The notes beneath the pieces are model-generated. The model was not told where the DNA came from. It saw nothing but the letters and a program-made list of their open reading frames with translations, and did not search any database. Of a DNA stretch of 64,000 nt, positions 13,406 through 40,205 are shown piece by piece. Within the stretch, counting starts at the first letter, position 1; each line of letters starts with the position of its first letter. Made by a program: the position numbers and the translations under genes. The stretch covers positions 62,001-126,000 of the forward strand of contig KZ836106.1 of NCBI GenBank assembly GCA_003265685.1. The letters run 5' to 3'. The DNA comes from Piscinibacter caeni (lineage in GTDB: Bacteria; Pseudomonadota; Gammaproteobacteria; Burkholderiales; Burkholderiaceae_C).

Positions 13406-13438
13406 TGGAATCTAATTCCAGTATGGATGTATATTCCG
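13406..13438. promoter_or_regulatory. Tandem IclR-type operators before the NIPSNAP-SDR-Liv operon
   Basis: A perfect palindrome TGGAATCTAATTCCA (13406-13420) is followed, 18 bases start to start, by a degenerate copy TGGATGTATATTCCG (13424-13438) that matches the 12 arm positions at nine. The sites cover a plausible -10 TATATT (13430-13435), suggesting repression. The same motif pair with the same spacing is at 30502-30534. IclR-family regulators are known to bind TGGAA-type palindromes, and one is encoded at 28631-29425. Confidence 0.7.
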
Positions 13439-13451
13439 AAGTGAGGTGTTC

Positions 13452-13799
13452 ATGACCCGCTCCCCGGCCCCCCTGCCGCTTGTCGACCACCGGATCTACA
13501 CGATCCGCCTGCGCAAGATGGGCGAATTCATCGAGGTGTTCGACCGCCTCGCGATGCCCATCCTGCTGGAGACGCTCGGCACGCCCGTCGGCTTCTGGAC
13601 CAGCCAGGTCGGCCCGCTGAACCAGTTCGTGCACTGCTGGGCCTACGGGAGCCTGGCCGACTACGAGCGCCGCTGCGAGGCGCGCGACCGGCATCCCGGT
13701 TTCCCCGCCTACCTGGCCGCGAGCGAACACCTGATCGCCGCGCAGGAGACACGCCTGATCCGGCGCGTCGAGATGAAGAGCCTGGGAGGCCGGCTGTGA
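13452..13799 (+). CDS. NIPSNAP-family protein
   Basis: 115 residues with a single NIPSNAP (dimeric alpha/beta-barrel) domain: DHRIYTIRLRKMGEFIEVFD at the start, and FVHCWAYGSLADYERR in the middle. Bacterial NIPSNAP proteins often sit in catabolic operons, but their reaction is mostly unknown. GAGG five bases before ATG 13452 favours this start over the GTG at 13446. It is the first gene behind the IclR-type operators, and its stop overlaps the next gene's GTG. A two-domain relative is at 31362. Confidence 0.85.
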   Translation: MTRSPAPLPLVDHRIYTIRLRKMGEFIEVFDRLAMPILLETLGTPVGFWTSQVGPLNQFVHCWAYGSLADYERRCEARDRHPGFPAYLAASEHLIAAQETRLIRRVEMKSLGGRL

Positions 13800-14587
13800 G
13801 CCGTGTTGTCGTGGTGACCGGCGCGGCCGATGGCATCGGCTGGGCCACCGCGCAGCGTTTCGCCCGCGATGCCGGTACCCGCGTCGTGCTCGCCGATCTG
13901 CGCGAACCGCAGGCGCGCGAACGCGCCGCTCAACTCGGCGCCGGCCACCTCGGCCTGGCCTGCGACGTGTCGCGCGAGGACAGCGTGATGGCGCTGGTGC
14001 GCGACGTGCTCGAGCGCTGCGGCCGCATCGACGTGCTGGTCAACAACGCCGGCATCGGCGATCAGTCCTGCGCCACGCTGGCGCAAGGCGTCGATGGGTT
14101 CGACCGCGTGCTCGGCGTGCACCTGCGCGGCAGCTTCCTGATGAGCCGCGAATGTGCCCGCACGATGCTCGAGCAGGGCGGCGGCGCGATCGTCAACATC
14201 GCCTCGATCGCCGCCTCGCACGGCATCCCCGGGCGCAACGCCTACGGCGCGGCCAAGGCCGGTATCGCCGCGATGACGCGCTCGATGGCCTGCGAGTGGG
14301 CGGCGCGCGGCGTGCGCGTCAACGCGGTCGCCCCGGGTTACGTGCGCACCGCGCTGGTCGAGAAGCTCGAGCGCGAAGGTGCGTTGAACGTGCAGGCGAT
14401 CCACGCGCGCACGCCGATGGCGCGCATGGGCTCGCCCGACGAGATCGCCGAGGTTGTCGCCTTCCTGGCCTCGCCGGCAGCCTCGTTCGTCACCGGAGCG
14501 GTGTTCGCGGTGGACGGCGGCTGGATCGCCTTCGGCGCCGCCATCCCCGCCGTTGCGCCGATCGTTGCCACAAGGGAGCCCGCATGA
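13796..14587 (+). CDS. Short-chain dehydrogenase/reductase (SDR)
   Basis: 263 residues. Classical SDR motifs are present: VTGAADGIGWA near residue 8, NNAG near 83, Ser in NIASIAA, and YGAAK near 150. The GTG start (13796) overlaps the NIPSNAP stop and has GGGAGG seven bases upstream. The end overlaps the permease start by four bases. It is probably an NAD(P)-dependent alcohol dehydrogenase acting on the imported compound. The C-terminal 20 residues after the usual DGGW end are an unusual hydrophobic extension. Confidence 0.88.
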   Translation: MSRVVVVTGAADGIGWATAQRFARDAGTRVVLADLREPQARERAAQLGAGHLGLACDVSREDSVMALVRDVLERCGRIDVLVNNAGIGDQSCATLAQGVDGFDRVLGVHLRGSFLMSRECARTMLEQGGGAIVNIASIAASHGIPGRNAYGAAKAGIAAMTRSMACEWAARGVRVNAVAPGYVRTALVEKLEREGALNVQAIHARTPMARMGSPDEIAEVVAFLASPAASFVTGAVFAVDGGWIAFGAAIPAVAPIVATREPA

Positions 14588-15432
14588 CCATCCATCTCTT
14601 CAACGGTCTGGTCTATGGCGCGCTGCTGATCGTGATGTGCTCCGGCCTGGCGCTCATCTACGGCCTGCGCCGCGTCGTCAACTTCGCGCACGGCTCGCTC
14701 TACATGCTGGGCGCCTACCTCGGCTACTCGATCGCGCTGCAAAGCAACTTCTGGGTCGCGCTGCTCGCCGCGCCGGCGCTGATGGCGCTGCTGGGCGTCG
14801 CGATCGACCGCTGGGGCTTCCGCCTGCTGCAGGACCGCGACCCGCTGGTCGTGGTGCTGGTCACCTTCGGCGGCCTGCTGGTCATCGAGGACCTGGTGCA
14901 GTCGGTCTGGGGCAAGAGCAACCTGTCGGTGGCGACGCCGGCGGAACTCGCCTTCTCGGTCGAGTTTCTCGGCGCCTCGCTGCCGGCCTACCGCATCGGC
15001 GTGATCGTCGTCGGCGCGGCGGTCGCGCTCGGGCTGACATTGTGGCTGCGCCACTCGAAGGTCGGCCTGTTCGTGCGCGCCGCCTCGACCGACCCGACCA
15101 CGACCGCGATGCAGGGAGTCAACACCGATGCCCTGTCGGCGATGGTGGTCGGCCTGGGCACGGCACTGGCCGGTCTGGCGGGCGTGGTGGCCGCACCGTT
15201 TCTCTCGCTGTCACCGTCGATGAGCAGCGACGTGATCATCGATTCCTTCGTCGTGGTCGTGATCGGCGGGCTCGGCAGCCTGGCCGGCGCCTTCGCGGCC
15301 GCGCTGCTGCTCGGCCTGGTGCAGGCACTCGGCGCGGTGTGGCTGCCCGACACCTCGGTGCTGCTGCCCTTCCTGATCATGGCGGCGGTGCTGCTGTTCA
15401 AACCCGCCGGCCTGGCCGGCAGCCGCACCTGA
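14584..15432 (+). CDS. Branched-chain-type ABC transporter permease (LivH family)
   Basis: 282 residues with about eight hydrophobic segments. It has the LivH signature regions LALIYGLRRVVNFAHGSLYMLGAY near the N-terminus and GLGSLAGAFAAALLLGL near the C-terminus. HAAT-family permeases of this type also carry aromatic and dicarboxylic acids, so the substrate need not be an amino acid. It overlaps the SDR stop (ATGA) and is followed by the LivM partner. Confidence 0.93.
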   Translation: MTIHLFNGLVYGALLIVMCSGLALIYGLRRVVNFAHGSLYMLGAYLGYSIALQSNFWVALLAAPALMALLGVAIDRWGFRLLQDRDPLVVVLVTFGGLLVIEDLVQSVWGKSNLSVATPAELAFSVEFLGASLPAYRIGVIVVGAAVALGLTLWLRHSKVGLFVRAASTDPTTTAMQGVNTDALSAMVVGLGTALAGLAGVVAAPFLSLSPSMSSDVIIDSFVVVVIGGLGSLAGAFAAALLLGLVQALGAVWLPDTSVLLPFLIMAAVLLFKPAGLAGSRT

Positions 15433-15447
15433 ACGGGGAGCGCGACG

Positions 15448-16452
15448 ATGCACACCTTCCGCAAGCTCTCGCTGTCCGCCGGGGCGATCGCGCTCGGTGC
15501 CGCGGCCGCCACGGCCATCGGCTCCGCCGCGCTGCTGTCGCTGCTGACGCAGGCCACCATCTACGCCGTGTTCGCGCTCGGCCTCGGGCTGCTGCTGCGC
15601 CAGAACGGCATGGTGTCCTTCGGCCATGCGCTGTACTTCGGCGCGGCCGGCTACATCGTGTCCATCCTGATCACCACGGGCCTCGTCAGTGCCGAGCTGG
15701 CGATCCTCGCGGCCCTCGCCGGTCTGACGCTCGGTGCCTTCCTGATCGGCCTGGTGATCGTGCGGGTGCCCGGCGTGGCCTTCAGCATGCTCACGCTCGC
15801 GGTCGGCCAGATGGCCTTCCTGAGCGCCTCGCGCTCGCGCGGCCTGACCGGCGGCGCCGACGGCATGACGATCGACTTCCCGACGACGCTCTTCGGGCTG
15901 AGCACCGCGGCGCTGCTCAAACCCGCCAGCCTGCTGATGCTGAGCTGGACGGTGCTGGTGCTCGCGCTGCTCGGCGTGTCGCTGCTGCTGGCCACGCGCT
16001 TCGGTGCCGTCACCGAGGCGGTGCGTGACAACGAGGAGCGGGCCCGTTTCATCGGCTTGCGCACCTTGCTGCCGCGTGCCGCGCTGTACGCGCTGTCGGC
16101 CGGCATCACCGCGCTGGCCGGCGTGCTCGCGGCGCTGAATACCGGCTTCGTGTCGCCCGAGAGCCTGCACTGGAGCCTCTCGGGCGTCGCCTTGATGATG
16201 GTCGTGGTCGGCGGCACGAAGAAGCTGTGGGGCCCGGCGCTCGGCGCGGCCGTGTACTTCTTCGCCAAGGACGTGCTTGGCGAACACTCGCAGCACTGGA
16301 TGGCGGTCTTCGGCATCGCCCTGATCGTCGTGATCGTGTTTGCGCCCGAAGGCCTGTCGGGCCTGCTCGGCCGGTTCTGGCTGCGCCGCCCGCGCCTGCC
16401 GCAGACGGCACCCACCACGCATGCCGCGCACGGCGAAGGGAGGACGGCATGA
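15448..16452 (+). CDS. Branched-chain-type ABC transporter permease (LivM family)
   Basis: 334 residues, about nine hydrophobic helices. LivM features are FGHALYFGAAGYI near residue 60, LTGGADGM near 130, and the EAVRDNEERARFIG coupling helix around 190-205, followed by AGVLAALNTGFVSPE. GGGGAG precedes the ATG by seven bases. The C-terminal tail is basic and Pro-rich. It overlaps the ATPase gene by four bases. Confidence 0.93.
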   Translation: MHTFRKLSLSAGAIALGAAAATAIGSAALLSLLTQATIYAVFALGLGLLLRQNGMVSFGHALYFGAAGYIVSILITTGLVSAELAILAALAGLTLGAFLIGLVIVRVPGVAFSMLTLAVGQMAFLSASRSRGLTGGADGMTIDFPTTLFGLSTAALLKPASLLMLSWTVLVLALLGVSLLLATRFGAVTEAVRDNEERARFIGLRTLLPRAALYALSAGITALAGVLAALNTGFVSPESLHWSLSGVALMMVVVGGTKKLWGPALGAAVYFFAKDVLGEHSQHWMAVFGIALIVVIVFAPEGLSGLLGRFWLRRPRLPQTAPTTHAAHGEGRTA

Positions 16453-17168
16453 CCGACCATGTGCTCGAGACCGAGGACGTCGCGATCCACTACGGCGGCG
16501 TCAAGGCGGTCGACGGGGTCGCGCTGACGCTGGCACGCGGCCAGATCCGCGGCCTGATCGGCCCGAACGGCGCCGGCAAGACCACCGTGATCAACGCCAT
16601 CACCGGGCGCTCGAAGCTGACGCGCGGCCGGGTGCGCCTGAACGGCGAGGACGTCTCCGCGCTCGGCGTCGTCGAGCGGCGCCAGCGCGGCCTGTCGCGC
16701 TCGTTCCAGCGCACCAGCATCTTCGGCCAGATGGGGGTGAGGAAGCAGGTCGAGCTGGCCTCCTATCAGAGTGGCGCCGAGAACCCGGGCGAGGATGCCG
16801 ACGAGGTGCTGCACGAGCTCGCGCTCGACCGCCTGGCCGCGGTGACCGCCGCCGACCTCGGCTACGGCGAGCAGCGGCGGCTCGACCTGGCGCTCGCGCT
16901 GGTCGGCCGCCCCAGCGTGCTGCTGCTCGACGAGCCGATGGCCGGGCTCTCGGTGCAGGAGTCGAACGAGCTCGCGCGGCACCTGCAGGCGCTGACCACG
17001 CGCCGCCAGGTCTCGGTGCTGCTGGTGGAGCACGACATGGACGTGGTGTTCGGCATCTCGGACGCCATCACCTGCTTCGAGCTGGGACGCGTGATCGCGT
17101 CCGGCTCGCCCGCCGAGGTGCGCGCGAACCCGCGCGTGCGCGAGGCCTATCTCGGGAGCGCCGCATGA
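16449..17168 (+). CDS. Branched-chain-type ABC transporter ATP-binding protein (LivG family)
   Basis: 239 residues. Walker A GPNGAGKTT near residue 38 and Walker B LLLDEPMAGL near 160 are intact. The ABC signature is degenerate, GYGEQRRLDLA instead of the usual LSGGQ/LSYGEQ, but the GEQRR core is normal for LivG. The domain drives import through the LivHM pair. It overlaps both neighbours by four bases. Confidence 0.92.
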   Translation: MTDHVLETEDVAIHYGGVKAVDGVALTLARGQIRGLIGPNGAGKTTVINAITGRSKLTRGRVRLNGEDVSALGVVERRQRGLSRSFQRTSIFGQMGVRKQVELASYQSGAENPGEDADEVLHELALDRLAAVTAADLGYGEQRRLDLALALVGRPSVLLLDEPMAGLSVQESNELARHLQALTTRRQVSVLLVEHDMDVVFGISDAITCFELGRVIASGSPAEVRANPRVREAYLGSAA

Positions 17169-17863
17169 AGACCCTGCTTGCACTCGAGGGCGTGAACGCC
17201 TTCTACGGTGCCGCGCACATCCTGCACGGCCTCTCGCTGCACGTGTCCGAAGGCGAGAAGGTCGCGCTGATCGGCCGCAACGGCGTCGGCAAGACCACGG
17301 TGGTCAACACCATCCTCGGCCTCGCGTCACTGAAGGGCGGGCACGTGAAGATCGCCGACCGGCTGCTGCCGCGCCCGCGCAGCTACATGGCGGCGCAGCG
17401 CGGCGTGGCGGTGGTGCCGCAGGGCCGCTGCATCGTCGCCAACCTGACGGTCGAGGAGAACCTGCTGCTCGGCGCGGCCACCGGCCGCAAGGGCCACTGG
17501 ACCGTGCCGCGTGTCTACGAGCTGTTCCCGATCCTGCGCGAGCGTGCCCACACGCCCGGCACCGCGCTCTCGGGCGGCCAGCAGCAGATGCTCGCGGTTG
17601 GCCGCGCGCTGATGGCCAACCCGGCCCTGATCCTGCTCGACGAGCCGACCGAGGGCCTCGCGCCGATCATCGTCGACCAGCTCGGCGTGATCTTCAACCA
17701 GGTGGCCGCGCAGGGCACGGCGCTGCTGCTGATCGAACAGAACATGACGCTCGTGGCCCGCGTGGCCGAGCGTTATTGCGCGATGGCCAAGGGGGCCGTC
17801 GTTGCCGAAGGCCGGGTCGACGACACCGGCCTCGATGGACTGCACCGCCACGTGATGGTGTGA
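17165..17863 (+). CDS. Branched-chain-type ABC transporter ATP-binding protein (LivF family)
   Basis: 232 residues. Walker A GRNGVGKTT near residue 38, the LivF-typical VVPQGRCIVANLTVEENLLLGA around 80-105, signature LSGGQQQMLAVGRALM, and Walker B LILLDEPTEGLAP. It is the second ATPase of the Liv-type importer and overlaps LivG by four bases. Confidence 0.93.
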   Translation: MKTLLALEGVNAFYGAAHILHGLSLHVSEGEKVALIGRNGVGKTTVVNTILGLASLKGGHVKIADRLLPRPRSYMAAQRGVAVVPQGRCIVANLTVEENLLLGAATGRKGHWTVPRVYELFPILRERAHTPGTALSGGQQQMLAVGRALMANPALILLDEPTEGLAPIIVDQLGVIFNQVAAQGTALLLIEQNMTLVARVAERYCAMAKGAVVAEGRVDDTGLDGLHRHVMV

Positions 17864-17883
17864 ACCTTCCCCAGGAGACAGAC

Positions 17884-19086
17884 ATGACCCCGTTCGACTT
17901 CACGCGCCGCGCGCTAGCCGCCGCGGCACTCGTTTCGGCGCTGCCGCTGGCCGCGCTCGCCCAGGCCAGGGACCCGGTCCGCATCGGCCTGGTCAGCTCC
18001 AAGTCCGGCGTCTTTGCGCAGCAGGGCGAGGAGGTGATCCGCGCGGTGCAGTTCGCGGTGGAGGAGGCCAACGCCCGCGGCGGCGTCGACGGCCGCAAGG
18101 TCGAGGTGCAGGTGGCCGACGACGAAGGCACGCCCGACGCCGGCCGCAAGGCGGCCGAGAAGCTGGCGCGCGACGGCTTCAACCTGCTGATCGGCGCGAT
18201 CCCGTCGTCGATCTCGCTGGCGCTCGGTCCCAACCTCGAGCGCTGGGACGCGGCCTACTTCGTCGTCGCGAGCAAGAGCGACAAGATCACCGGCGACTCG
18301 TGCAAGCCGCGCATGTTCCGCACCAACCACAGCGACGCGATGGACATCGCGATGATCGGCGAGTGGGCCAAGGGCTTCAAGGAGAAGAGCTACGCCACGC
18401 TGGCAGCCGACTACGTCTGGGGCCGCGATTCGGCGGAGAGCTTCGCCCGCGCCGTCAAGGCGCAGGGCAAGGAAGTCAAGCTGCAGCTCTACCCCGCGAT
18501 GGGCACCAAGGACTTCTCGCCCTTCATCGCGCAGCTGAAGGAGGCCAATGTCGAGGCGGTGTGGGTGGCCGAGACCGGCCGGGACGCGATCGCCTTCGTC
18601 AAGCAGGCGCAGGAGTTCGGCCTGCTGCCGAAGGTCAAGATCATCGGCCACTCGCTGCTGCAGAACTTCATGATCGAGGCCACCGGCAAGTCGCTCGACG
18701 GCACCCCCGGCAACCTCACCTACTCGCCGGATCTGGACAACCCGCGCAACAAGGCCTTCGTCGCCGCGTGGCGGGCGAAGTTCAACCGCCTGCCGACCGA
18801 CAACGAGGGCCTGGCCTACAACGGCACGCAGGTGATCTTCGACGGCGTCAGGCTCGCCAGGAGCAGCAAGCCGGGCGACGTCGCCAAGGCGCTGCCCGGC
18901 CAGACGCTGGACACGATCTACGGCAGCGCGCAGCTGCGCGCGGCGGACAACCAGCTCGTCATCCCGAACCTGGTCGGCCGCGCCAAGGTGGTGGACGGCG
19001 CGCTGCGCCCGGTGGTCGAGCAGCAGTTTCCGCCCGCGCTGATGCCGCCGGCCTCGCCGGCGTGCAAGCTGGCCGCGGCGGGCTGA
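17884..19086 (+). CDS. ABC transporter substrate-binding protein (LivJ/K-type fold)
   Basis: 400 residues. An N-terminal signal peptide ends near AALAQA (about residues 22-28). The mature part is a type-I periplasmic-binding fold starting DPVRIGLVSSKSGVFAQQGEE and containing VADDEGTPDAGRKAAEKL and the second-lobe strand TLAADYVWGRDSAESFARAVK. It captures the ligand for the LivHMGF-like importer. CAGGAGA precedes the ATG. The ligand cannot be read from the sequence. Catabolic neighbours suggest a carboxylated alicyclic or aromatic compound. Confidence 0.93.
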   Translation: MTPFDFTRRALAAAALVSALPLAALAQARDPVRIGLVSSKSGVFAQQGEEVIRAVQFAVEEANARGGVDGRKVEVQVADDEGTPDAGRKAAEKLARDGFNLLIGAIPSSISLALGPNLERWDAAYFVVASKSDKITGDSCKPRMFRTNHSDAMDIAMIGEWAKGFKEKSYATLAADYVWGRDSAESFARAVKAQGKEVKLQLYPAMGTKDFSPFIAQLKEANVEAVWVAETGRDAIAFVKQAQEFGLLPKVKIIGHSLLQNFMIEATGKSLDGTPGNLTYSPDLDNPRNKAFVAAWRAKFNRLPTDNEGLAYNGTQVIFDGVRLARSSKPGDVAKALPGQTLDTIYGSAQLRAADNQLVIPNLVGRAKVVDGALRPVVEQQFPPALMPPASPACKLAAAG

Positions 19087-19091
19087 GGGGC

Positions 19092-20939
19092 ATGACGATG
19101 GACATGCCGGCCAAGCTGGCGTCGCTGGCGGATGGCGCCGAAGTCGATGTCGTCGTGCTCGGGGCCGGCGGGGCCGGCCTGTCGGCGGCGGTCTACGCGG
19201 CCATCGCGGGCGCGCGTGTGGTGCTGGTCGAATCGACCGAATACGTCGGCGGCACGACCGCCTGGTCGGCCGGTACGACCTGGGTGCCGGGCACCGCGCT
19301 CGGCGCGACCGTCAACCCGCAGGACACGCTGGCTGCGGCAGAGCGCTTTCTCGATGCGGCCGTCGGCGCGCGCTCGGATCCGGCGCTGCGTGCGGCACTG
19401 CTGAAGAACGGACCGAAGGCCGTCGAGGTGATGCAGGCGAACTCGCAGCTGCGCTACCGCGCGCGGCCCTTCCACCCGGACTACCTCTCCGAGCTCGAAG
19501 GCTCGACCACCTGCGGCCGGGCGCTCGAGCCGCTGCCTTTCGACGGGCGGCTGCTCGGTGAGCAGCTCGCGCTGGTGCGCCCGCCGATCCCCGAGTTCAC
19601 GGTGCTCGGCGGCATGATGGTCGACCGCGACGACATCGGCCACCTGCTCAAGGCGTGGCGTTCGTGGACCTCGTTCGCCTACTCGGCGCGCATCGTCGCG
19701 CGCCACCTGCTGGACCGCCTGCGCCACGGCCGCGGCACCCGCCTGCTGATGGGCAACGCGCTGGTCGGCCGGCTGCTGCTGAGCCTGAAGGAGCGTGGCG
19801 TGACGCTGCTGATGCAGACGCGCGCGACGCAGCTGCACCGCGATGCCGCCGGCGTCTCGCGCATCACCCTCCGGCAAGGCGACACGGTGCGCACGCTGAG
19901 CGTGCGCGGCGGCGTGGTGCTGGCCAGCGGCGGCTTCAACCGCCACCCGCAGCGCCGCGCGGCGCTGCTGCCCGGCATCGCCGGCGCCTGGTGCCCGGGG
20001 GCGCCCGGCCACACCGGCCAGGCGCACGATCTGGCCGAACAGGTCGGCGCCACGTACGGGGAGGGGGCGCTGAGCCCTTGTTTCTGGGCCCCGGTGTCCT
20101 TGCGCAAGCGCCCCGACGGCTCGACGGCGGTGTTCCCGCATTTCGTGTTCGACCGCGCCAAGCCGCACATGGTGACGGTCGACCAGCGCGGCGACCGCTT
20201 CCTCAACGAATCGACCTCGTACCACCTGTTCGGCATCGGCATGCAGCAGGCGAACGCGACGACCCCCAGCATCCCGGCCTGCCTGATCACCGATGCGCAG
20301 GGCATGCGCAAGTACGGTCTCGGCATGGTGCGACCCAGGGGCATGGGCCTGGCTGCCGCGCAGGCGGACGGCTACGTCACCAGCGCGGCAAGCCTCGACG
20401 AGCTGGCCCGCAAGCTCGGCCTGCCGCCCGAGCGGCTGAAGCGCTCAGTCGAACGCCTGAACGCCGCGGCGCAGACCGGCATCGACCCCGACTTCGGACG
20501 CGGCAGCACGCTCTACCAGCGTGCCAACGGCGATGCGGCTTGGCACGGCCCGAACCCGAGCCTCGGGCCGATCGCGCAGGCGCCGTTCCACGCCGTCAAG
20601 CTCTACCCGGGCGACATCGGCGCGGCCACGGGCTTGCGCACCGATGCCTCGGCGCGGGTGCTCGATGCGCAAGGCGCGGTGATCCCGGGCCTCTATGCGG
20701 TCGGCAACGACATGCACTCGGCGATGGGCGGCACCTACCCGGCGCCCGGCATCACGATCGGGCCGGGGCTGGTGTTTGCGTACCTGGCGGCCGGCCACGC
20801 GCTGGCCAGGGCGACCACGGGCGACGCCGGGGGGGAACTCACCGCACCGGCACAGCGGCGGGCGCCACGCGCCACGCCGGCGCACGCGAGCGGCGCGGCC
20901 ATGGCGGGATCTCGAAGCGGGGCAGTTCCTGCAGCTTGA
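19092..20939 (+). CDS. FAD-dependent dehydrogenase, KstD-like, with C-terminal extension
   Basis: 615 residues. FAD motif VVVLGAGGAGLSAAVYA near residue 18, STEYVGGTTAWSAGT near 50, and C-terminal YAVGNDMHSAMGGTYPAPGITIGPGL. It is the second of three paralogues and the last gene of the NIPSNAP-SDR-Liv operon, six bases after the binding protein. After the usual family end (AGHALAR) the frame runs on for about 40 Ala/Arg/Gly-rich residues and overlaps the convergent gene at 20839 by 101 bases. The extension may be real or may mark loss of an original stop. The likely role is desaturation of a ring ketone. Confidence 0.86.
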   Translation: MTMDMPAKLASLADGAEVDVVVLGAGGAGLSAAVYAAIAGARVVLVESTEYVGGTTAWSAGTTWVPGTALGATVNPQDTLAAAERFLDAAVGARSDPALRAALLKNGPKAVEVMQANSQLRYRARPFHPDYLSELEGSTTCGRALEPLPFDGRLLGEQLALVRPPIPEFTVLGGMMVDRDDIGHLLKAWRSWTSFAYSARIVARHLLDRLRHGRGTRLLMGNALVGRLLLSLKERGVTLLMQTRATQLHRDAAGVSRITLRQGDTVRTLSVRGGVVLASGGFNRHPQRRAALLPGIAGAWCPGAPGHTGQAHDLAEQVGATYGEGALSPCFWAPVSLRKRPDGSTAVFPHFVFDRAKPHMVTVDQRGDRFLNESTSYHLFGIGMQQANATTPSIPACLITDAQGMRKYGLGMVRPRGMGLAAAQADGYVTSAASLDELARKLGLPPERLKRSVERLNAAAQTGIDPDFGRGSTLYQRANGDAAWHGPNPSLGPIAQAPFHAVKLYPGDIGAATGLRTDASARVLDAQGAVIPGLYAVGNDMHSAMGGTYPAPGITIGPGLVFAYLAAGHALARATTGDAGGELTAPAQRRAPRATPAHASGAAMAGSRSGAVPAA

Positions 20940-21807: not shown

Positions 21808-21824
21808 CGGGCGGGGCGGGTGAG

Positions 21825-23108: not shown

Positions 23109-24210
23109 CGAGGCCTTCCGAGCGCCGGCGCTCGGCGTAGCGGCGATACGCCGGGCTGTCGAACAGCGCCGCCTCGAGGCCGCGCCCGAGTGCACGCTGC
23201 ATCAGCAGTTCCATCGCGAGCGTCTGCGCCTCGCGGATCGGCAGGGGCGTGGTGCCGCGCATGTCGGGCCACTGCTCGATGATCTCGAGCGCGCGCAGCA
23301 GTACCGCGTCGTCGCCGGTCGCCGCGATCAGGCCGTAGAGCATGCCGTACAGGCCGTCGAGCGTTCGCGGCAGCAGCGCCGCCGTCTCGGCGCCGGGGCG
23401 CGCGGCGAGCAGGCGCAGCACGTCGACGCCGGCCTGGATCTCGCGCAGCACGCCGAAGAACTCCGCCGCGTTGGCCGCGCCGATGCGGCCCTGCACGAAC
23501 AGGCGCTGCGCGCGCTCGGACAGGCCCGACTTCAGCACGTTCGAGATGTCTTCCCAGCCGCGTGGGCTGGCGCCGACGAGGTGGTCGTTGGCCAGCTGGC
23601 TCGCCGTGTCGTCGAGCCGGTCGGGGCGCACCTTCAGGTAGGCCAGCACCGCCGGCGCGAAGCCCTGCGCGAGCGCATGCTCGAGGAAGGCGTCGATGGC
23701 GGTCTGCACGTTGAAGTGGAACATGCGGTCGGCCAGCGCCGTGCCCATGTCGTGCGAGACCGCGCCGTGGAAGCTGGCGTTGCCGGCGGCGATCACCTGC
23801 CAGCCGTCGGGCAGGCGGTAATGGCCGACGCGCCGGTCGAGGATCAGCGAGTAGGCCGAGATCTGCAGGCGCTGGTCGGCGGCGGTGAGCTCGTCGAGGA
23901 ACAGGATGCCTTCGCCCTGGTCCGCCGCGGGCAGGAACTCCGGCGGGAACCAGACCGTCTGGCCGCGCACCTCGTCGGCGTAGATGGCGCCGCGGATGTC
24001 CACCGGCTCGATCGTCGTCAGCCGCAGGTCCACGAGCGGCACGCCGAAGTGGCGCGCCACCTGCAGCACGACCGAGGACTTGCCGACGCCGCGGGTGCCC
24101 CACAGCATCGTCGCGCGCCGGCGCAGCACCGGGTCGGCGTACTGCTCGATCAAGGCGGCCTTGGCCGCCGCGATCGAGACCGGCGGGATGTTCATCGGGT
24201 CGGCGGGCAT
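23101..24210 (-). CDS. MoxR-family AAA+ ATPase
   Basis: About 369 residues. Walker A GTRGVGKSS (Lys44 from the chosen start), Walker B ILFLDEL (Asp106, Glu107), sensor-1 VIAAGN, and the MoxR-like DMGTALADRMFHF segment. MoxR ATPases remodel partner proteins held by VWA domain proteins. Starts at 24219, 24210 and 24195 are all possible; none has a good Shine-Dalgarno. The VWA gene overlaps its 3' end. Expression may be linked to the GlxA-type regulator 31 bases upstream. Confidence 0.88.
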   Translation of the reverse strand: MPADPMNIPPVSIAAAKAALIEQYADPVLRRRATMLWGTRGVGKSSVVLQVARHFGVPLVDLRLTTIEPVDIRGAIYADEVRGQTVWFPPEFLPAADQGEGILFLDELTAADQRLQISAYSLILDRRVGHYRLPDGWQVIAAGNASFHGAVSHDMGTALADRMFHFNVQTAIDAFLEHALAQGFAPAVLAYLKVRPDRLDDTASQLANDHLVGASPRGWEDISNVLKSGLSERAQRLFVQGRIGAANAAEFFGVLREIQAGVDVLRLLAARPGAETAALLPRTLDGLYGMLYGLIAATGDDAVLLRALEIIEQWPDMRGTTPLPIREAQTLAMELLMQRALGRGLEAALFDSPAYRRYAERRRSEGLDG

Positions 24211-24241
24211 GGCAGGCATTCTGCCCAAGCCCGGCGCGGCC

Positions 24242-25276
24242 CTACATCGGCGGCTGTGCCGAGCGGTCCGGCAGCTCGCCGCTCGGCACCGCGATCGGGC
24301 CAAAGCGGCGCCGGTAGTCGGCCGGCGTGACGCCGCACAGGCGCTTGAACACCTGGCGGAAATGCGCCGCGTCGTCGTAGCCGACCTGCGCGGCAATCGT
24401 CTGGATCGCCTGCGTGCCGCCTTCCAGCAGCTCGCGCGCCGCGGCGATGCGCAGGTGCTGGAGGTAGGCACCCGGCAGCTGCCCGGTGGCGGCCTTGAAG
24501 CGCCGCACCAGGTTGCGCGGGCTCATGCCGACCTGCTGCGCCAGCGCATCCAGCGTCATGCCCTCGCGCTGCTTGCGCTGCAGGATCTCCTCGACCGCCC
24601 GGATGCGTTCGTCGGCATGCGGGCGCGACAGCGGGACGGTGGCGTAGCTTGCCTGGCTGGTGCGCGGCATGGCGACCAGCAGCGCGCGGGCCGCCTCCAG
24701 CGCCACCGTGCGGCCGCAGAACTTCTCGACCAGGTACAGGCTCAGGTCGATGGACGAGTACATGCCCCCGCCGCAGTAGAGGCCGTGGTCCTCGGTGACG
24801 AACTTCTCGGGCTGCCAGCGCACCGACGGGAATCGCTGCTGCAGCAGCGTCGCGACGGCCCAGTGCGTGGTGGCGCGCCGGCCGTCCAGCAGTCCGGCCG
24901 CGGCCAGGTAGGCCACGCCGGAGCAGACCCCCGCGATCTGCGCTCCGCCGCGGCGCACCTGGCGCAGCCAGTCGATCAGCGCCGGGTCGTAGGCCGAGGT
25001 CTCCAGCAGGGCCGGGCTGGGCGCGCCGACGACGACGAGATCCGTGCGCGTGATGGCGCCGATGCGGCACTGCGGCGACAAGGACACGCCGTAGGTGCAG
25101 GGCACGGCCAGGCCGTCGATCGACGCGGTGCGCACGCAAAAGCGCGGCTGCGGTGGCGTGCCCTGCAGGCCGTTCCAGAGCCGGCCGGCGGCGTGGAAGA
25201 CCTCGATCGGGCCGAGCGAGGTCGAGACCCAGCCGCCGGGCAGCAGCACCACCGTGACGTCGATCGGCGTCTTCAC
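24242..25276 (-). CDS. GlxA-type transcriptional regulator (DJ-1/PfpI domain plus AraC HTH)
   Basis: 344 residues. The N-terminal DJ-1/PfpI-like domain (about 5-180) includes VVLLPGGW and the nucleophile-elbow position GVCSGVAYLAAAGLLDGRRATTHW, with a Cys in place. The C-terminal AraC/XylS domain has LDALAQQVGMSPRNLVRRF and IQTIAAQVGYDDAAHFRQVF. GTG at 25276 overlaps the VOC stop (GTGA) and is preferred over the upstream GTG at 25297. Members of this family often control catabolic or stress operons. The target here may be the MoxR-VWA trio or its own operon. Confidence 0.87.
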   Translation of the reverse strand: MKTPIDVTVVLLPGGWVSTSLGPIEVFHAAGRLWNGLQGTPPQPRFCVRTASIDGLAVPCTYGVSLSPQCRIGAITRTDLVVVGAPSPALLETSAYDPALIDWLRQVRRGGAQIAGVCSGVAYLAAAGLLDGRRATTHWAVATLLQQRFPSVRWQPEKFVTEDHGLYCGGGMYSSIDLSLYLVEKFCGRTVALEAARALLVAMPRTSQASYATVPLSRPHADERIRAVEEILQRKQREGMTLDALAQQVGMSPRNLVRRFKAATGQLPGAYLQHLRIAAARELLEGGTQAIQTIAAQVGYDDAAHFRQVFKRLCGVTPADYRRRFGPIAVPSGELPDRSAQPPM

Positions 25277-25650
25277 GGGCGCGTCGCACCCTGCCACAGG
25301 CCCAGCAGTGCACCCACGCCGTCGTTCACGAGGGCGATGCGGGCCACCCCGTCGATCTCGAAGGGCTGCACGACCACCGCGCCGCCGGCGGCGACGACGC
25401 GGCGGGCCGCGGCGTCGGCGTCCGCCACCGCGACGTAGGGTGTCCAGTGCGAGGGCACGCCGGCGCGCAACTGGCGCACCGGCAGCTGGTACAGCGAGCC
25501 GACGTCGGCCTCCCCGCTGCGCAGCCGGGTGAAGACGCCGCCATGCGCCTGCTGCTCGTGGGCGCTCCAGCCGAACGCGTCGGCATAGAAGCGCCGCGCC
25601 GCCGCGGCGTCGCGCGCCGCGAGGTCGAGCCAGCAGAAGCCGCCGCTCAT
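25273..25650 (-). CDS. VOC-family protein (glyoxalase/bleomycin-resistance fold)
   Basis: 125 residues of two beta-alpha-beta-beta-beta modules: FCWLDLAARDAAAARRFYADAFGW at the start, and WTPYVAVADADAAARRVVAAGG in the second half. The start overlaps the preceding DUF4242 stop, and the stop overlaps the regulator start, so the three genes form a tightly coupled set. Metal-binding residues are not clearly conserved, so a specific activity cannot be given. Confidence 0.85.
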   Translation of the reverse strand: MSGGFCWLDLAARDAAAARRFYADAFGWSAHEQQAHGGVFTRLRSGEADVGSLYQLPVRQLRAGVPSHWTPYVAVADADAAARRVVAAGGAVVVQPFEIDGVARIALVNDGVGALLGLWQGATRP

Positions 25651-25922
25651 CACACCGCCGTCATCGGATCGATGATGCTGCGCACCTCGGTCACCTTGCT
25701 GGCCGGGAAGCCGCTGATGCGCGCATGTTCCTGCACCGCGGCCTCGTCCTCGGCCAGGTAGATGCAGAAGGTCTTGTCCGCCACGACGAAGGATTGCACC
25801 CATTGCGCCTTGCCGTGCAGGCGCGCCAGCGCGTCGTTCGAGGTGGCGGCGGCGCCGCGCAGCTGCCCGGCATCGAGTTGTCCGACGCCGGGGATGTCGC
25901 GTTCGATCACGTAGCGTTTCAT
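25650..25922 (-). CDS. DUF4242 (SCO4226-like) small protein
   Basis: 90 residues starting MKRYVIERDIPGVGQL and containing KTFCIYLAEDEAAVQEHA, typical of the DUF4242 ferredoxin-like family, in which one Streptomyces member binds nickel. GGAG precedes the ATG by about nine bases. It is the first gene of DUF4242-VOC-GlxA. The 124-base gap upstream (25923-26046) probably carries the promoter, but no clear -35/-10 pair or operator was found there. Confidence 0.82.
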   Translation of the reverse strand: MKRYVIERDIPGVGQLDAGQLRGAAATSNDALARLHGKAQWVQSFVVADKTFCIYLAEDEAAVQEHARISGFPASKVTEVRSIIDPMTAV

Positions 25923-26046
25923 GAGATGGGCTCCGACAGGAGCATGGTTGGAGGAGCCGCCACTCTGCGCGCCTGCACCGCCTTCCGATAGATGGCAGCC
26001 CAGACATTGTGCAGGGGGGATCCGGCCAAAAGGGGCCTGGCACGGC

Positions 26047-26865
26047 TCAGACGATCGCGCCTTCCAGAACCCGCCGCGCGGCGGAGACCGCGAGCCGGGC
26101 CCAGGCCTCGTAGCCCATCGCCGGCGCACGCGAGTCGCTCGGGATCTCGATGCTGACCGGCAGGTCGGCCGGCAGGCGCTCGAACAGCGCGCGCAGTGGG
26201 ATGCCGCCTTCGCCGGGCAGGCCGCGCTCGCAGCGGGCGTCGAAGATCAGTCCCTCGGTGGTGGCCGGCCCGGGCACCGCGCCGTCGCAGATCTGCGCGT
26301 AGTGCAGGCGCGTGCGCGGGATCGCCGAGACGTCGTCCAGGCTGCTGCCGCTGCGCGACCAGTGCAGCGCGTCGACCAGCACGCCGCCGTTGGGCTGGGC
26401 CGCGGCCTCGGCGATGCGCAGCGCCGTCGCGCAGTCGCGCACGGCGGTCCAGGGCATGAACTCGAGGTCGGCGCTGAGGCCGCAGGGGGCGGCGGCCTCG
26501 CACAGCGCGGCGAAGCGTGCGGTCAGGCGGGCCTCGTCGGGGTCGTCGCCGGCGACGAGGATGTGCTTCGCGCCGAGTTCGGCGCCGGTGGCGAGGAAGG
26601 CAGCGCAGGCACCCGGGTCGAAGTCCGCACCGATGCGCAGCACCTCGAGGTCGAGCACCCGCACGCCGGTGTCGCGGATCGCGGCCAGCGTCTCGCGGCG
26701 CAGCGGCGCGTCGTCCATCAGCGGGTAGTGCGTGCCGCCGGGCGAGGCCGGCAGCAGGCGGATGCCGGCGGCGGCACAGCCGCTGGCGGCGGCCAGGCGG
26801 ACCATCTGGGGGGGCGCGTAGGGCAGGGCGGTGAGCTGGGCCAGTGAGTAGGGGCGGGTCGTCAT
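26047..26865 (-). CDS. Sugar-phosphate isomerase/epimerase-like TIM-barrel enzyme
   Basis: 272 residues of the AP-endonuclease-2/xylose-isomerase-like TIM barrel. Strand ends carry candidate metal or catalytic acids: VLDLEVLRIG, LSADLEFMPW, LVDALHWSRSG, and VSIEIPS. The family includes IolE/IolI-like dehydratases, hydroxypyruvate isomerases and 3-dehydroshikimate dehydratases. It lies two bases after the flavoprotein gene in the Gfo/Idh-IclR-FAD operon. A ring-acting isomerase or dehydratase role in the same pathway is inferred. Confidence 0.85.
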   Translation of the reverse strand: MTTRPYSLAQLTALPYAPPQMVRLAAASGCAAAGIRLLPASPGGTHYPLMDDAPLRRETLAAIRDTGVRVLDLEVLRIGADFDPGACAAFLATGAELGAKHILVAGDDPDEARLTARFAALCEAAAPCGLSADLEFMPWTAVRDCATALRIAEAAAQPNGGVLVDALHWSRSGSSLDDVSAIPRTRLHYAQICDGAVPGPATTEGLIFDARCERGLPGEGGIPLRALFERLPADLPVSIEIPSDSRAPAMGYEAWARLAVSAARRVLEGAIV

Positions 26866-26867
26866 GG

Positions 26868-28622
26868 TCAATGGGTTTCGAGGGTGGGTTCGGTCTGTGC
26901 GGCGGCGGGCATCGGCAGCGGGCGGCCGGCCGCGTGGTGCGCCAGCAGCCAGGCGAAGGTGAGGGCCGGTCCGAGCGTGATGCCGCCACTCGGGTAGTGG
27001 CCGCCCATCACGCTGGCCATGTCGTTGCCGGCGGCATAGAGGCCGGGGATGGCGGCGCCGGCCGCGTCGAGCGCCTGCGCGTGCTGATTCACCGCGAGGC
27101 CGGCGAAGGTGCCGAGGCTGCCGGGCACGATGCGCACGGCGTAGAAGGGGCCGCGCTCGAGCGGCGCCACGCATGGGTTGGGGCCGTGGTGCTCGGCGTC
27201 GCCCTGCATGCGGTCGTAGGGCGTGCCGCCGCGGTCGAAGGCGGGGTCGGTCCCGGCGCGCGCGGCCTCGTTGTAGGCACGGAGCGTGCGCACGAGGCCG
27301 TCCGCATCGATGCCGCAGGCCTGCGCCAGCTCGCGTGGCGTGCGGCCGCGCTTCAGGTAGCCGTCGGCCAGGCGGCGGCGATGCGGGAAGGGCCAGGGGC
27401 GCACCGCGCCGAGGCCGTAGCGGCGGATGAAACGCGCGTCGCACAGCAGCCAGGCCTCGACCGGCCGGTCCGGATGCGCGCGGCACTTCGCGAACAGCGC
27501 GCGCATGAACGAGTGGTAGTTGCCGGCCTCGTCGACGAAGCGCTCGCCGCGTGCATCCACCGCGATGAGCCCGGGCTTGCCGCGCTCGACCAGGTGCGGG
27601 AAGTTGAGCATGCCACCCGCGTGCGGCACCCGCGAGACCGGCGCCCAGGCGCCGGCATCGGCGAGCCCGGTGCCCCATCGTGCGCCGCTGGCCTCGCCCA
27701 GCCGCAGCCCGTCGCCGGTGTTGCCTGCGGGCGCGGCCGAGTGGTGCTCGTGCCCCGTCGGCGCATGCGGGAACAGGGCCGCCAGCCGCGCCGGATCGTG
27801 CGGGAAGCCGCCGCAGGCGAGCACGACGCCGCGGCGGGCGGCAATGCTGCGCTCGCCGCCAGGGCTTGCGACCACCGCGCCGAGCACCCGGCCCGATTCG
27901 CAGCGCAGCGAGCGCGCCGCGTGCGAGGCCAGCAGCGTCACGCCGCGTTCCCGGGCCGCGCACAGCAGCGCCGCGACCATCGCGTTGCCGCCCAGGCGCA
28001 GCCGGCCGTGGCCGAGCGTCGCGCGTTCCCAGAGATGGCGCACGATGCGCCGGCCGACGTACCAGGCCGAATCGAGCGCCCGGTTGGCGCGCAGGAAATG
28101 CCGCAGGTCACCGCCGATGCTCATGCCGAGGAAGGACATCAGCGGGTGCGGCGGCTTGAGCAGCGGCAGCAGCGGCCCGAGCCGCGCCGCGTCGAAGGGT
28201 GCGGCGCAGACCGAGCGCCCGCCGCTGCGCGCACCCGGCGCGTGGCCGTGGAAGTCGGGGACCGCGTTGCCGTCGACGAAGCCGAGCGTGCCGTGCTCGA
28301 GGTGCCACTGCAGCATCGCCGGCGCATGGGCGAGGAAGGCCTCGATGCGGGGCTCGTCGAACTGCGCGCCGATCACGTGGTGGAGGTAGCGGCGCACCTC
28401 GTCGAGCGGCTCGACGATGCCGGCGCGCACCGCCAGCGGGTTGCGCGGCACCCACATCCAGCCGCCCGACCAGGCGGTGGTGCCGCCGAACTGCGCCTCC
28501 TTCTCGACCACCACGACGCGCAGGCCGAGTTGGGCGGCCACCACGGCCGTGCCGAGGCCGCCGGCGCCGGAGCCGACGACGAGCAGGTCGCAATCGGCGG
28601 GAAGGGTGCCCGTCTCGGCCAT
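26868..28622 (-). CDS. FAD-dependent dehydrogenase, KstD-like (third paralogue)
   Basis: 584 residues. FAD motif LLVVGSGAGGLGTAVVA near residue 14, EKEAQFGGTTAWSGGWMWVP near 42, and C-terminal YAAGNDMASVMGGHYPSGGITLGP. Like the copy at 11626 it has the GGFPHDPARLAALFPHA region and the NTGDG stretch, so those two are closer to each other than to the 19092 copy. It ends eight bases before the upstream IclR gene's stop in the same operon. Cytoplasmic, no heme motif. The substrate is unknown. Confidence 0.87.
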   Translation of the reverse strand: MAETGTLPADCDLLVVGSGAGGLGTAVVAAQLGLRVVVVEKEAQFGGTTAWSGGWMWVPRNPLAVRAGIVEPLDEVRRYLHHVIGAQFDEPRIEAFLAHAPAMLQWHLEHGTLGFVDGNAVPDFHGHAPGARSGGRSVCAAPFDAARLGPLLPLLKPPHPLMSFLGMSIGGDLRHFLRANRALDSAWYVGRRIVRHLWERATLGHGRLRLGGNAMVAALLCAARERGVTLLASHAARSLRCESGRVLGAVVASPGGERSIAARRGVVLACGGFPHDPARLAALFPHAPTGHEHHSAAPAGNTGDGLRLGEASGARWGTGLADAGAWAPVSRVPHAGGMLNFPHLVERGKPGLIAVDARGERFVDEAGNYHSFMRALFAKCRAHPDRPVEAWLLCDARFIRRYGLGAVRPWPFPHRRRLADGYLKRGRTPRELAQACGIDADGLVRTLRAYNEAARAGTDPAFDRGGTPYDRMQGDAEHHGPNPCVAPLERGPFYAVRIVPGSLGTFAGLAVNQHAQALDAAGAAIPGLYAAGNDMASVMGGHYPSGGITLGPALTFAWLLAHHAAGRPLPMPAAAQTEPTLETH

Positions 28623-28630
28623 CGACGTGG

Positions 28631-29425
28631 CTAGCCGGCGCGTGCGTACGCGCGGTCGAACAGCGGCGAGGCCGCGCTCGCGTTGGCGATGTCGGCGGCG
28701 GCGGCCTTCAGGTCGGGCACCAGCGACAGCATCTTCTGCTCCGTCAGGCGCACCGAGGGCCCGGAGATCGCCAGCACACCGACCGCCCCCCGGCCCGCCG
28801 GCTGCAGCGTGGTGGCGATGGCTGACAGGCCTTGTGCATAGGTCTCGACGGTGATCGCGTAGCCCTGCTTGCGCGCCTGCCGGATGGCCTTCAGCACGGC
28901 CTGCATCGAGCCGGGCGCGTTCGGGCCGTAGGCCGCCGGCTTGGCCAGGCCCTGCCTAGAGACCAGTGCGATCGCGTCGTCCTCGGGCAGTGTGGCGAGC
29001 CAGGCGTGGCCGGACGAGGTGCAGGAGAGCTGCACGTCCAGGCCCATGTCGGGGTCGTAGCGCAGGCCGCTGCGCGCGCCCTGCGACAGCGCGACCCAGG
29101 TGATGTGGTCGACGTCGACCACGCCGAGCCGGCACAGCTCGCCGCTGCTCTCGGCGAGGCGGTCGAGGATGGGCTGCGAGAGATCGACGACGCCGGAGTG
29201 CTTGAGGTAGTTCAGCCCGAGCGAGACCAGCTTGGTGGTCAGCACGTAGTCGCCGCGCTCGCGCGTCTGGCGCACGTAGCCCTGGGCCGCCAGGTCGGAG
29301 AGCAGCCGGTGCATGGCGCTGCGCGGGATGTCGAGGTCGTCGGCCAGGGTCGCCAGCGAGACGCCGCGCACGTCGGCCGCAAGCCGCTCGAGGATCGCCA
29401 GGGTTCGCTCCATCACGCCGGACAT
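28631..29425 (-). CDS. IclR-family transcriptional regulator
   Basis: 264 residues. The N-terminal winged helix-turn-helix (about 1-60) contains SLATLADDLDIPRSAMHRLLSDL. The C-terminal effector domain has the IclR signature region with GSMQAVLKAIRQARKQGYAIT near residue 170 and GAVGVLAISGPSVRL near 220. It sits inside the operon it likely controls (after Gfo/Idh, before the flavoprotein). The TGGAAT-ATTCCA palindromes at 13406-13438 and 30502-30534 are its best candidate operators, implying autoregulation. Confidence 0.92.
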   Translation of the reverse strand: MSGVMERTLAILERLAADVRGVSLATLADDLDIPRSAMHRLLSDLAAQGYVRQTRERGDYVLTTKLVSLGLNYLKHSGVVDLSQPILDRLAESSGELCRLGVVDVDHITWVALSQGARSGLRYDPDMGLDVQLSCTSSGHAWLATLPEDDAIALVSRQGLAKPAAYGPNAPGSMQAVLKAIRQARKQGYAITVETYAQGLSAIATTLQPAGRGAVGVLAISGPSVRLTEQKMLSLVPDLKAAAADIANASAASPLFDRAYARAG

Positions 29426-29444
29426 GCGCAGCCTCCGTGGGGTA

Positions 29445-30491
29445 TCAGGATGCGGCCAAGCTTACCGGCGCCCGGGTGCGCGCCGCCTCGAGCACCGCCA
29501 ACGTGGCCTGCAGCGTGCGCAGCCCGTCGCGGCCGCTGCACCGCGGCGCCTCGGTGCCCTCGGCCACCGCGCGCAGGTGGCGCAGCTGCTCGAGGTACGG
29601 GTCGGCGCGGTGCACGATGGTGCGCTCCTGCGTCAGCTCCTCGTGCCAGCCGCGCCGATCGCGGTAGCGGTAGACGTTCAGGCGCGGAAGGGTCAGCGAG
29701 GCTTCGGTGCCGCTGAAGAAGTGCGAGTCGATGTCCTGCGGCGGGTAGTGCGCGGCCTCGCCGGCGGCCAGGTCCCAGTTCCACGGCGCCACCGCGGCGT
29801 CGGTGACACCCATCGTGCCGAGCGCGCCGTTGGCGAAGCGCAGCGCGATCGCGGCCGTGTCCTCGACCGCGAAGCCGCGCTGCGCGTTCGACGCGATCGC
29901 CTGCACCTCGACGATCTCGCCGACGAGGAAGCGCAGCATGTCGATGTCGTGGATCAGGTTGATCAGCACCGGCCCGCCACCCGGCTGGCGGCGCCAGGCC
30001 ACGTCGAAGTACGGGTCGGGCTTGAGCCACACCGCCATCGCATGCACGCTGACCGGCCGGCCGAGCAGGCCGCCGTCGATCAGCTGCCGGGCGCGCTGCA
30101 TCGTCGGGCTGTGACGGCGCTGGTGGCCGACGAGCAGCGGCACGCCGGCCGCCTCGGCCGCGGCGCACAGGCGCTCGCCTTCGGCCACGCTGTCGGTGAC
30201 CGGCTTCTCGACCAGCACCGGGATGCGCCGCTCGATGCAGGCGAGCGCCGCGTCCGCATGCGCCTGGTTGGGCGTGGCCACGATCGCCGCACGCACCGGC
30301 ACCGCCTCGAGCAGCGCGCGTGCGTCGGCGAAGTGCGGCACGCCGAGGCGCGCGCCGAGCTCGGCGGCGGCCGGGCCGGGGTCGCAGACGGCGGCGACCC
30401 GCAGGTCCTGGCCGCGCAGGGCGTGCTCGGCGTGCGCGCGGCCGATCTGGCCGGCGCCGATCAGCGCGATCGGCAAGGGGCTGGTGTTCAT
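29445..30491 (-). CDS. Gfo/Idh/MocA-family NAD(P)-dependent oxidoreductase
   Basis: 348 residues. Rossmann motif ALIGAGQIGRAHA near residue 9, the family hallmark EKPVTDS around 95-101, and the DIDMLRFLVGEI helix with candidate catalytic residues. Members oxidise or reduce cyclic polyols and sugars, for example myo-inositol dehydrogenase. ATG 30491 is preferred to an upstream TTG at 30509, because that codon lies within the operator. It is the first gene of the minus-strand operon and diverges from the AroE-like gene. Confidence 0.9.
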   Translation of the reverse strand: MNTSPLPIALIGAGQIGRAHAEHALRGQDLRVAAVCDPGPAAAELGARLGVPHFADARALLEAVPVRAAIVATPNQAHADAALACIERRIPVLVEKPVTDSVAEGERLCAAAEAAGVPLLVGHQRRHSPTMQRARQLIDGGLLGRPVSVHAMAVWLKPDPYFDVAWRRQPGGGPVLINLIHDIDMLRFLVGEIVEVQAIASNAQRGFAVEDTAAIALRFANGALGTMGVTDAAVAPWNWDLAAGEAAHYPPQDIDSHFFSGTEASLTLPRLNVYRYRDRRGWHEELTQERTIVHRADPYLEQLRHLRAVAEGTEAPRCSGRDGLRTLQATLAVLEAARTRAPVSLAAS

Positions 30492-30501
30492 GGTCCAATT
30501 A

Positions 30502-30534
30502 TGAAACAAACTTCGATAACGGAATAGTATTCCA
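30502..30534. promoter_or_regulatory. Tandem IclR-type operators in the divergent Gfo/Idh - AroE-like promoter
   Basis: CGGAATAGTATTCCA (30520-30534) matches the site at 13406 in 11 of 12 arm positions. A weaker copy, TGAAACAAACTTCGA (30502-30516, eight of 12), lies exactly 18 bases away, the same spacing as at 13406/13424. The pair fills the 76-base gap between divergent starts (30491 and 30568) and could control both directions. The local AT-richness stands out against the surrounding sequence. Confidence 0.68.
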
Positions 30535-30567: not shown

Positions 30568-33379
<2,812 letters not shown>

Positions 33380-39044: not shown

Positions 39045-39078
39045 TGAAACCGGTTTCTAGTCTAGGAAACCGGTTTCA
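39045..39078. promoter_or_regulatory. Two PtxS-type operators before the ABC-kgu operon
   Basis: GAAACCGGTTTC occurs twice as a perfect 12-base palindrome (39046-39057 and 39066-39077), 20 bases apart. Flanking bases give TGAAACCGGTTTCT and GGAAACCGGTTTCA. The published PtxS site in Pseudomonas is TGAAACCGGTTTCA. They lie 17-49 bases before the first permease start (39028), so a bound repressor would block the promoter. The spacing of about two turns suggests cooperative binding. Confidence 0.87.
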
Positions 39079-40191: not shown

Positions 40192-40205
40192 TGAAACCAG
40201 TTTCA
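40192..40205. promoter_or_regulatory. Third PtxS-type operator, upstream of ptxS
   Basis: TGAAACCAGTTTCA (40192-40205) differs from the published PtxS consensus at one central base. It ends 12 bases before the ptxS start codon on the minus strand, which implies negative autoregulation by blocking the start of transcription or elongation. Confidence 0.82.

Follow-up and report, generated by a model that had tools for sequence, protein, structure and literature searches.

How can two groups of genes that lie about 17,000 bases apart in a bacterial genome answer to one switch? The question is raised by a 64,000-nucleotide stretch of Piscinibacter caeni DNA (contig KZ836106.1; hereafter the window), in which two 33-bp tandem palindromes of the IclR type stand before operons for flavoproteins, NIPSNAP proteins and a Liv-type importer. 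Our explanation, to which we give a probability of roughly three in four, is that the IclR-family regulator encoded at 28631..29425 on the minus strand (264 aa) is a local, autoregulated repressor of three units that would act through both tandem operators and be released by a ligand. What we observed directly is that the sites exist, that they are rare in the genome and that relatives keep them together with related regulators and target genes; from these observations we infer this IclR as the binder, tetramer binding, repression and relief by a ligand. One switch protein very probably recognizes the same 33-base site before both gene groups, which are probably switched on and off together.

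Two tandem operators and their rarity in the genome

Operator 1 (13406..13438, given without strand) lies upstream of an operon for a NIPSNAP protein, an SDR dehydrogenase, a LivHMGF transporter, a substrate-binding protein (SBP) and a flavoprotein (FADb). It consists of the strong palindrome TGGAATCTAATTCCA at 13406-13420 and a weak copy, TGGATGTATATTCCG at 13424-13438, 18 bases downstream, in which 9 of 12 arm positions match. Operator 2 (30502..30534, likewise without strand) lies in the divergent gfo-iclR / aroE-like intergenic region, where the weak copy TGAAACAAACTTCGA at 30502-30516 (8 of 12 arm positions) is found 18 bases upstream of the strong palindrome CGGAATAGTATTCCA at 30520-30534. 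The preliminary description of this DNA had reported the two strong palindromes, with agreement at 11 of 12 arm positions, and a degenerate second copy 18 bases from each; a direct check of the sequence bore out the palindromes and the second copies alike, with the positions and mismatch counts as given. With respect to the downstream gene (NIPSNAP and Gfo/Idh, respectively) the strong palindrome is distal and the weak one proximal in both operators, and each operator, read toward that gene, is preceded by CAATAAA, an arrangement absent from the preliminary description. The palindrome centres are 18 nt apart at both operators, within the 18-22 nt of IclR-family tandem sites.

Both sites are rare. 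Exact matches to YGGAATNNNATTCCR occur at two places in the whole 6.87-Mb genome, both in the window, against none for the reversed control pattern, and the only exact matches to YGGAAT-N3-ATTCCR in the genome are the window's two strong palindromes. When the tandem pattern was searched with up to three mismatches, three places were found genome-wide (control 0): the two window operators, with 2 and 3 mismatches, and position 7835 of contig C45. The last was not counted as an operator: it falls within what is probably a coding sequence, and all five of the other genus members searched contain this stretch as well. One-mismatch palindromes on contigs C47 and C104 were also rejected; they are within open reading frames (ORFs) and have no tandem match. 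Palindromes with up to two mismatches number 27 in the genome versus 4 in the reversed control, and part of this excess may belong to other IclRs.

The standing of the weak copies needs separate comment. The 15-bp pattern with up to three mismatches is no commoner in the window (23 occurrences) than in shuffles (25.1), so that a weak copy alone proves nothing. The weak copy is not mere decay, because operator 2 and the corresponding site of Piscinibacter defluvii have most of this region in common (TCGAAGTTTGTTTCA and TCGAAGTATGTTCCA).

Conservation of the operator with related iclR genes

Of 399 genomes of the family (the window's own included), 83 have a relative of the window IclR that matches at E 1e-40 or better. 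We assembled the stretches around the 40 best non-window IclR matches in family genomes together with eight named iclR loci (Piscinibacter defluvii, Ideonella livida, Sphaerotilus mobilis, Leptothrix discophora, Xenophilus sp. and metagenome-assembled genomes of Rubrivivax, Burkholderiales and Aquincola); dropping P. defluvii (L031, L039) and a duplicate (L037, the same place as L040) left 45 loci. The operator was described by a 33-bp four-box consensus, TKGAAT-N3-ATTCMA-N3-TKGAAT-N3-ATTCMA. Within 1.7 kb upstream of iclR, 38 of the 45 loci have a stretch of 33 bases that agrees with the consensus at 19 or more of 24 positions, the reversed control reaching at most 16; the loci lacking such a site are L032, L049, L060, L075, L076, L077 and L078. 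Because the consensus had been chosen after some of the loci were seen, two further checks were added, an out-of-sample matrix and leave-one-out scoring.

The matrix was trained on the 38 relatives' sites, with the window and P. defluvii excluded, and it ranks the two window operators first and second, at 36.4 bits for 30502 and 34.8 bits for 13406. The best non-overlapping match in the window scores 2.4 bits, the reversed window gives 0.55, and 30 windows simulated by an order-3 Markov model give at most 13.3. A chance match was rejected on the grounds of genome rarity, the ranks under the out-of-sample matrix and the genome scan with the tandem pattern. Among the low-score matrix matches in the window are a doubled TGAAACCGGTTTC-type palindrome and TGAAACCAGTTTCA (39045-39077 and 40192-40205), presumably LacI-like sites, which adjoin minus-strand genes resembling transporter genes by their first residues.

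In the leave-one-out scoring, sites at least 80% identical to the scored one were dropped and a threshold of 24 bits was applied. Loss of the palindromes from loci that keep the coding genes, which the preliminary description had named as one outcome that would refute it, was looked for and not seen: the operator reaches 24 bits in 35 of the 36 loci with at least one cluster gene near iclR (at least 48% identity), and the single miss scores 23.8. The putative regulon and its operator occur together in 18 or more further genera of the family, not counting that of the window. The earlier proposal of one regulon of three operons under IclR 28631-29425 gains support from comparative genomics. Two results of the same scoring weigh on the other side, as 4 of the 9 loci without cluster genes also reach 24 bits and one of 45 reversed controls does so too (24.1).

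In P. defluvii (L031 / L039) gfo-iclR and the operator are kept beside argG, with an IclR 93% identical to that of the window and a site of 37.8 bits by the matrix, and the cluster enzymes are missing around them. Its genome has no match to NIPSNAP protein a at 1e-20, and a 41% identical AroE relative is found elsewhere only. Here the regulator may have been left behind after the loss of the enzymes, and gfo may be all that it controls locally.

The relatives also show where operators stand when cluster genes have been moved. In L048 and in L065, L068 and L070 (two genera) the LivHMGF-SBP genes, mostly with the SDR gene, lie in line beyond AroE-FADb, and a single divergent operator could serve all genes. 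Leptothrix has the block in near-window gene order and a separately promoted FADb with an extra operator of 47.4 bits; Sphaerotilus carries FADb on a different contig, behind an operator of its own (43.9 bits), and in Xenophilus AroE-LivHMGF-SBP and TIM share an operator on another contig (53.9 bits). In Ideonella an operator of 24.8 bits separates AroE from FADc, some 10 kb away from iclR.

Several loci do not fit so well. No operator was found at the Ideonella iclR itself, nor at the separate SDR-FADa-NIPSNAP-SDR-FADb block of G118 (L040), the FADa-NIPSNAP-SDR block of G336 (L094) or the Liv block of L053, where the stretch ends about 50 bases beyond NIPSNAP. The place of the second operator is not conserved either, being before NIPSNAP in the window and before FADb in Leptothrix, and an operator between adjacent FADa and NIPSNAP genes occurs in the window only and in none of the other loci examined. 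These last two observations are what could be said for taking the 13406 operator as a chance look-alike, with only the divergent site at 30502-30534 at work. Yet 13406 scores 34.8 bits out of sample, far above the next window match and the simulated maximum, it is one of the two exact palindromes in 6.87 Mb, and second operators precede cluster genes in Leptothrix, Sphaerotilus and Xenophilus; we regard a look-alike as very improbable.

The proposed binder and its predicted mode of action

The proposed binder of both operators is above the family cut-offs, at 50.3 bits for the N-terminal HTH_IclR domain PF09339 (cut-off 22, E 2e-13) and 88.1 bits for the C-terminal IclR_C domain PF01614 (cut-off 24, E 6.4e-25), and its relatives adjoin the operator. 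In the 399 family genomes the tandem pattern with at most one mismatch was found in 25. The window genome, whose sites depart from the pattern at 2 and 3 positions, is not one of them. In 22 of the 25 the site is beside a relative of this IclR; the reversed pattern gave one match in each of two genomes. The association (22 of 83 genomes with an IclR relative versus 3 of 316 without) has a Fisher p of about 1e-13, uncorrected for relatedness. The three near-exact sites without an adjoining relative were counted as misses: those of G300 and G231, for which the 10-kb stretches searched (E up to 1e-3) contain no such relative, and that of G082, which is within several overlapping ORFs.

Another IclR-family protein of the genome could bind the sites and the neighbouring IclR bind elsewhere. 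The window genome has ten IclR_C proteins, and motifs of this type are found near other IclRs too: at C5:56452 a palindrome with 2 mismatches precedes another IclR's IclR_C domain by about 400 bases, and in G194 a similar site, apparently used by another IclR group (L092:8092-8124), scores 49.5 bits. This G194 site is additional to the one that places the genome among the 22. It was considered as a second target 15.5 kb from iclR and not counted as support, because it adjoins LysR and acyl-CoA dehydrogenase genes and another IclR gene follows 3 kb on. Closely similar operators may therefore serve more than one IclR group. Nor does the helix-turn-helix segment PRSxxHRLL help to separate site-bearing from site-less IclRs, because it is kept in most site-bearing loci and also in the site-less L049, L060, L075 and L078. 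Against a foreign binder stand the 22 of 25 genomes in which the site adjoins a relative of this very IclR, and the window genome's other AroE-like, Liv-transporter and IclR cluster on contig C112 (L119; AroE 42% identical), in which no site above 12 bits was found. We consider a foreign binder improbable.

How would the IclR encoded at 28631-29425 act? The window has operators ahead of gfo-iclR, aroE and the NIPSNAP operon, and comparable arrangements occur in relatives. Each of the two tandem palindromes of the 33-bp operator would be bound by a dimer of the regulator, and the dimers most likely join in a tetramer. Cooperative operator binding by a tetrameric IclR-family repressor was reportedly described by Lu and colleagues in 2010 for the TtgV-operator complex; TtgV is said to regulate efflux and to have an operator sequence unlike the window's. 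Binding at 13406-13438 would control the NIPSNAP-SDR-LivHMGF-SBP-FADb operon and binding at 30502-30534 the divergent gfo-iclR-FADc-TIM and aroE-NIPSNAP operons, the position upstream of gfo-iclR pointing to autoregulation. From operator edge to ATG there are 13 nt for NIPSNAP, 10 nt for gfo (ATG at 30491) and 33 nt for the aroE-like gene, distances that fit repression, since a protein bound there would mask either core promoter elements or the start of transcription, shutting off all three units. A ligand from the pathway would release it.

The relatives' sites add a possible refinement. Their boxes are unequal, the outer ones mostly TGGAAT and the inner ones mostly TTGAAT, with A-tracts outside. 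With the inner box taken as a -35 element, 27 of 38 loci have, on the aroE side, a -10-like hexamer matching 4 or more of 6 positions at exactly N17 (shuffled flanks: mean 2.5, maximum 8, n=1000), and on the iclR side 29 of 38 have one at N16-18 (shuffled: mean 6.1, maximum 13); at 5/6 stringency the numbers are 11 and 8 of 38. In most relatives the operator seems, from its sequence, to double as the back-to-back -35 pair of both divergent promoters, so that the protein, once bound, should close the two of them; such an overlap would explain the TTGAAT inner versus TGGAAT outer boxes. These counts overstate the independent evidence, because the idea arose from the same loci and the loci are related. 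In the window this coupling was looked for and not seen: no sigma-70-like promoter was found at either operator, and the inner boxes depart from TTGAAT. This counts against our explanation. Repression in the window is proposed because the operators are near the start codons, no promoter having been called there.

The same regulon could also be run by IclR as an activator, or as an activator with ligand and a repressor without it. The main text of Suvorova and Gelfand 2021 (PMC8222616) counts activators and dual regulators in the family, and the closest curated family by score is PcaR/PcaU/PobR (TIGR02431), of which the window protein, at 122.6 bits, falls far under the 284.75 cut-off. However, operators that end 10 nt from the gfo start and 13 nt from that of NIPSNAP are too close for an upstream activator site, and in relatives the boxes overlap -35 elements, so that activation is unlikely.

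Repression through a tandem site would follow a known pattern. The main text of the same survey describes IclR-family palindromes in tandem in 94 orthologous groups, with centres 18-22 nt apart (mainly 19-21), explained by tetramer binding, and states that such regulators as a rule govern their own gene together with one or two neighbouring operons. The 18 nt of the window is at the low end of that range. Because both the tandem spacing and the local-regulon pattern fit by sequence, the switch in the window appears to be of a known kind, of which it is a new and well-supported instance, as judged against that main text. The window's 15-bp unit is like the survey's group 2 consensus, TGRAACAN1-2TGTTYCA, in length and in its GAA-N5-TTC core. 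The operator of Escherichia coli IclR, TGGAAATNATTTCCA (Table 1, PMC8222616), has the same 15-bp frame, with TGGAA and TTCCA as its two ends, but its gene set differs from the window's and the window protein scores 115.9 bits against the equivalog cut-off of 380 (NF008601). The inner pair in its strong form, ATTCCA-N3-TGGAAT, reads ATTCC-N5-GGAAT and so resembles the Corynebacterium glutamicum GenR operator ATTCC-N7(5)-GGAAT (Table 1, PMC8222616); in contrast to the latter, the window operator has two outer boxes around the inner pair, making four, and no gentisate pathway enzyme was recognised.

The genes of the putative regulon and their function

The distal operon runs on the plus strand with overlapping or closely spaced genes. 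It begins with NIPSNAP protein a (13452..13799, PF07978 E 2.9e-22) and the SDR dehydrogenase (13796..14587, PF13561 E 7.9e-70). The putative LivH-type permease that follows (14584..15432) was named by position and conservation, being 68-87% identical by tblastn in L034, L048, L053, L065, L068 and L070 versus 29-38% to unrelated Liv sets (L041, L057, L072). Next come the LivM-type permease (15448..16452, PF02653 E 4.9e-25), the LivG-type ATPase (16449..17168, PF00005 E 2.4e-27, and PF12399), the LivF-type ATPase (17165..17863, PF00005 E 6.9e-28), SBP (17884..19086, PF13458 E 2.2e-73) and, last, the FAD_binding_2 flavoprotein FADb (19098..20939, PF00890 E 1.5e-76). A further flavoprotein, FADa (11626-13359), lies on the other side of operator 1 from NIPSNAP and is not under that operator.

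The minus-strand operon starts with a Gfo/Idh/MocA-type oxidoreductase (29445..30491, PF01408 E 1.2e-25, start picked by eye) and continues, with gaps of 19, 8 and 2 bp, through iclR, the KstD/ChcC2-like FAD_binding_2 flavoprotein FADc (26868..28622, PF00890 E 7.1e-96) and a xylose-isomerase-like TIM-barrel protein (26047..26865, start picked by position; PF01261 E 3.8e-12 in a longer ORF). Divergent from it, on the plus strand, are an AroE-like protein of the shikimate dehydrogenase family (30568..31365, PF08501 E 5.2e-19; best PDB match 4k28, E 4.9e-42) and NIPSNAP domain protein b (31677..31973, PF07978 E 1.4e-29, start codon not fixed). Between the distal and the minus-strand operon, at 21828-25297, are minus-strand genes for a DUF2201/VWA-like protein, an AAA ATPase and an AraC-type regulator with a DJ-1/PfpI domain, a block apparently unrelated to the two operons.

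What might these genes do? The three flavoproteins (FADa, FADb, FADc) match models for 3-ketosteroid dehydrogenase and for 4-oxocyclohexene-carboxylate dehydrogenase, and the SDR protein matches ChcB2, a cyclohexanecarboxylate enzyme (NF053701), at 220.5 bits against a cut-off of 350. For ChcC2 (NF053677, cut-off 900) the three flavoproteins score 553.7, 415.8 and 457.8 bits in the same order, and for ChcC1 (cut-off 1000) 295.3, 284.3 and 292.8. Because the SDR and FADa scores are below the curated cut-offs, the likeness to ChcB2 and ChcC2 is only a lead to the chemistry, and none of the four proteins is placed in the Chc pathway by these models. Among the best 25 matches per protein the families above cut-off are general ones only, NF009477 (FADb, 852.4 bits, cut-off 758), NF004789 (FADc) and NF005559 (SDR); the TIM-barrel protein has a weak match to QuiC, 18.1 bits versus 1200. 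The AroE-like protein keeps VTVPHK and CDG and has QVKSP where shikimate dehydrogenases usually read HSKSP. The predicted enzyme set together with the Liv importer suggests an alicyclic or hydroaromatic carboxylic acid as the class of substrate and ligand. No publication on this gene cluster was found, judged by titles and abstract openings.

The proposed assignment gives a testable link of regulator, operator and regulon for a widespread gene set of KstD-like flavoproteins, NIPSNAP, AroE-like and Gfo/Idh proteins and a Liv importer, and searching other genomes for the operator could reveal additional members of the regulon. We are tempted to go further and speculate, tentatively and at a little under even odds, that the cluster is an undescribed catabolic regulon for alicyclic or hydroaromatic carboxylic acids, whose four-box operator carries the divergent -35 elements in its inner TTGAAT boxes so that one tetramer would shut both promoters, and that copies of this operator arose at displaced genes. 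If this is true, the break-up of the cluster in different lineages would have come with new operator copies before the genes that were moved.

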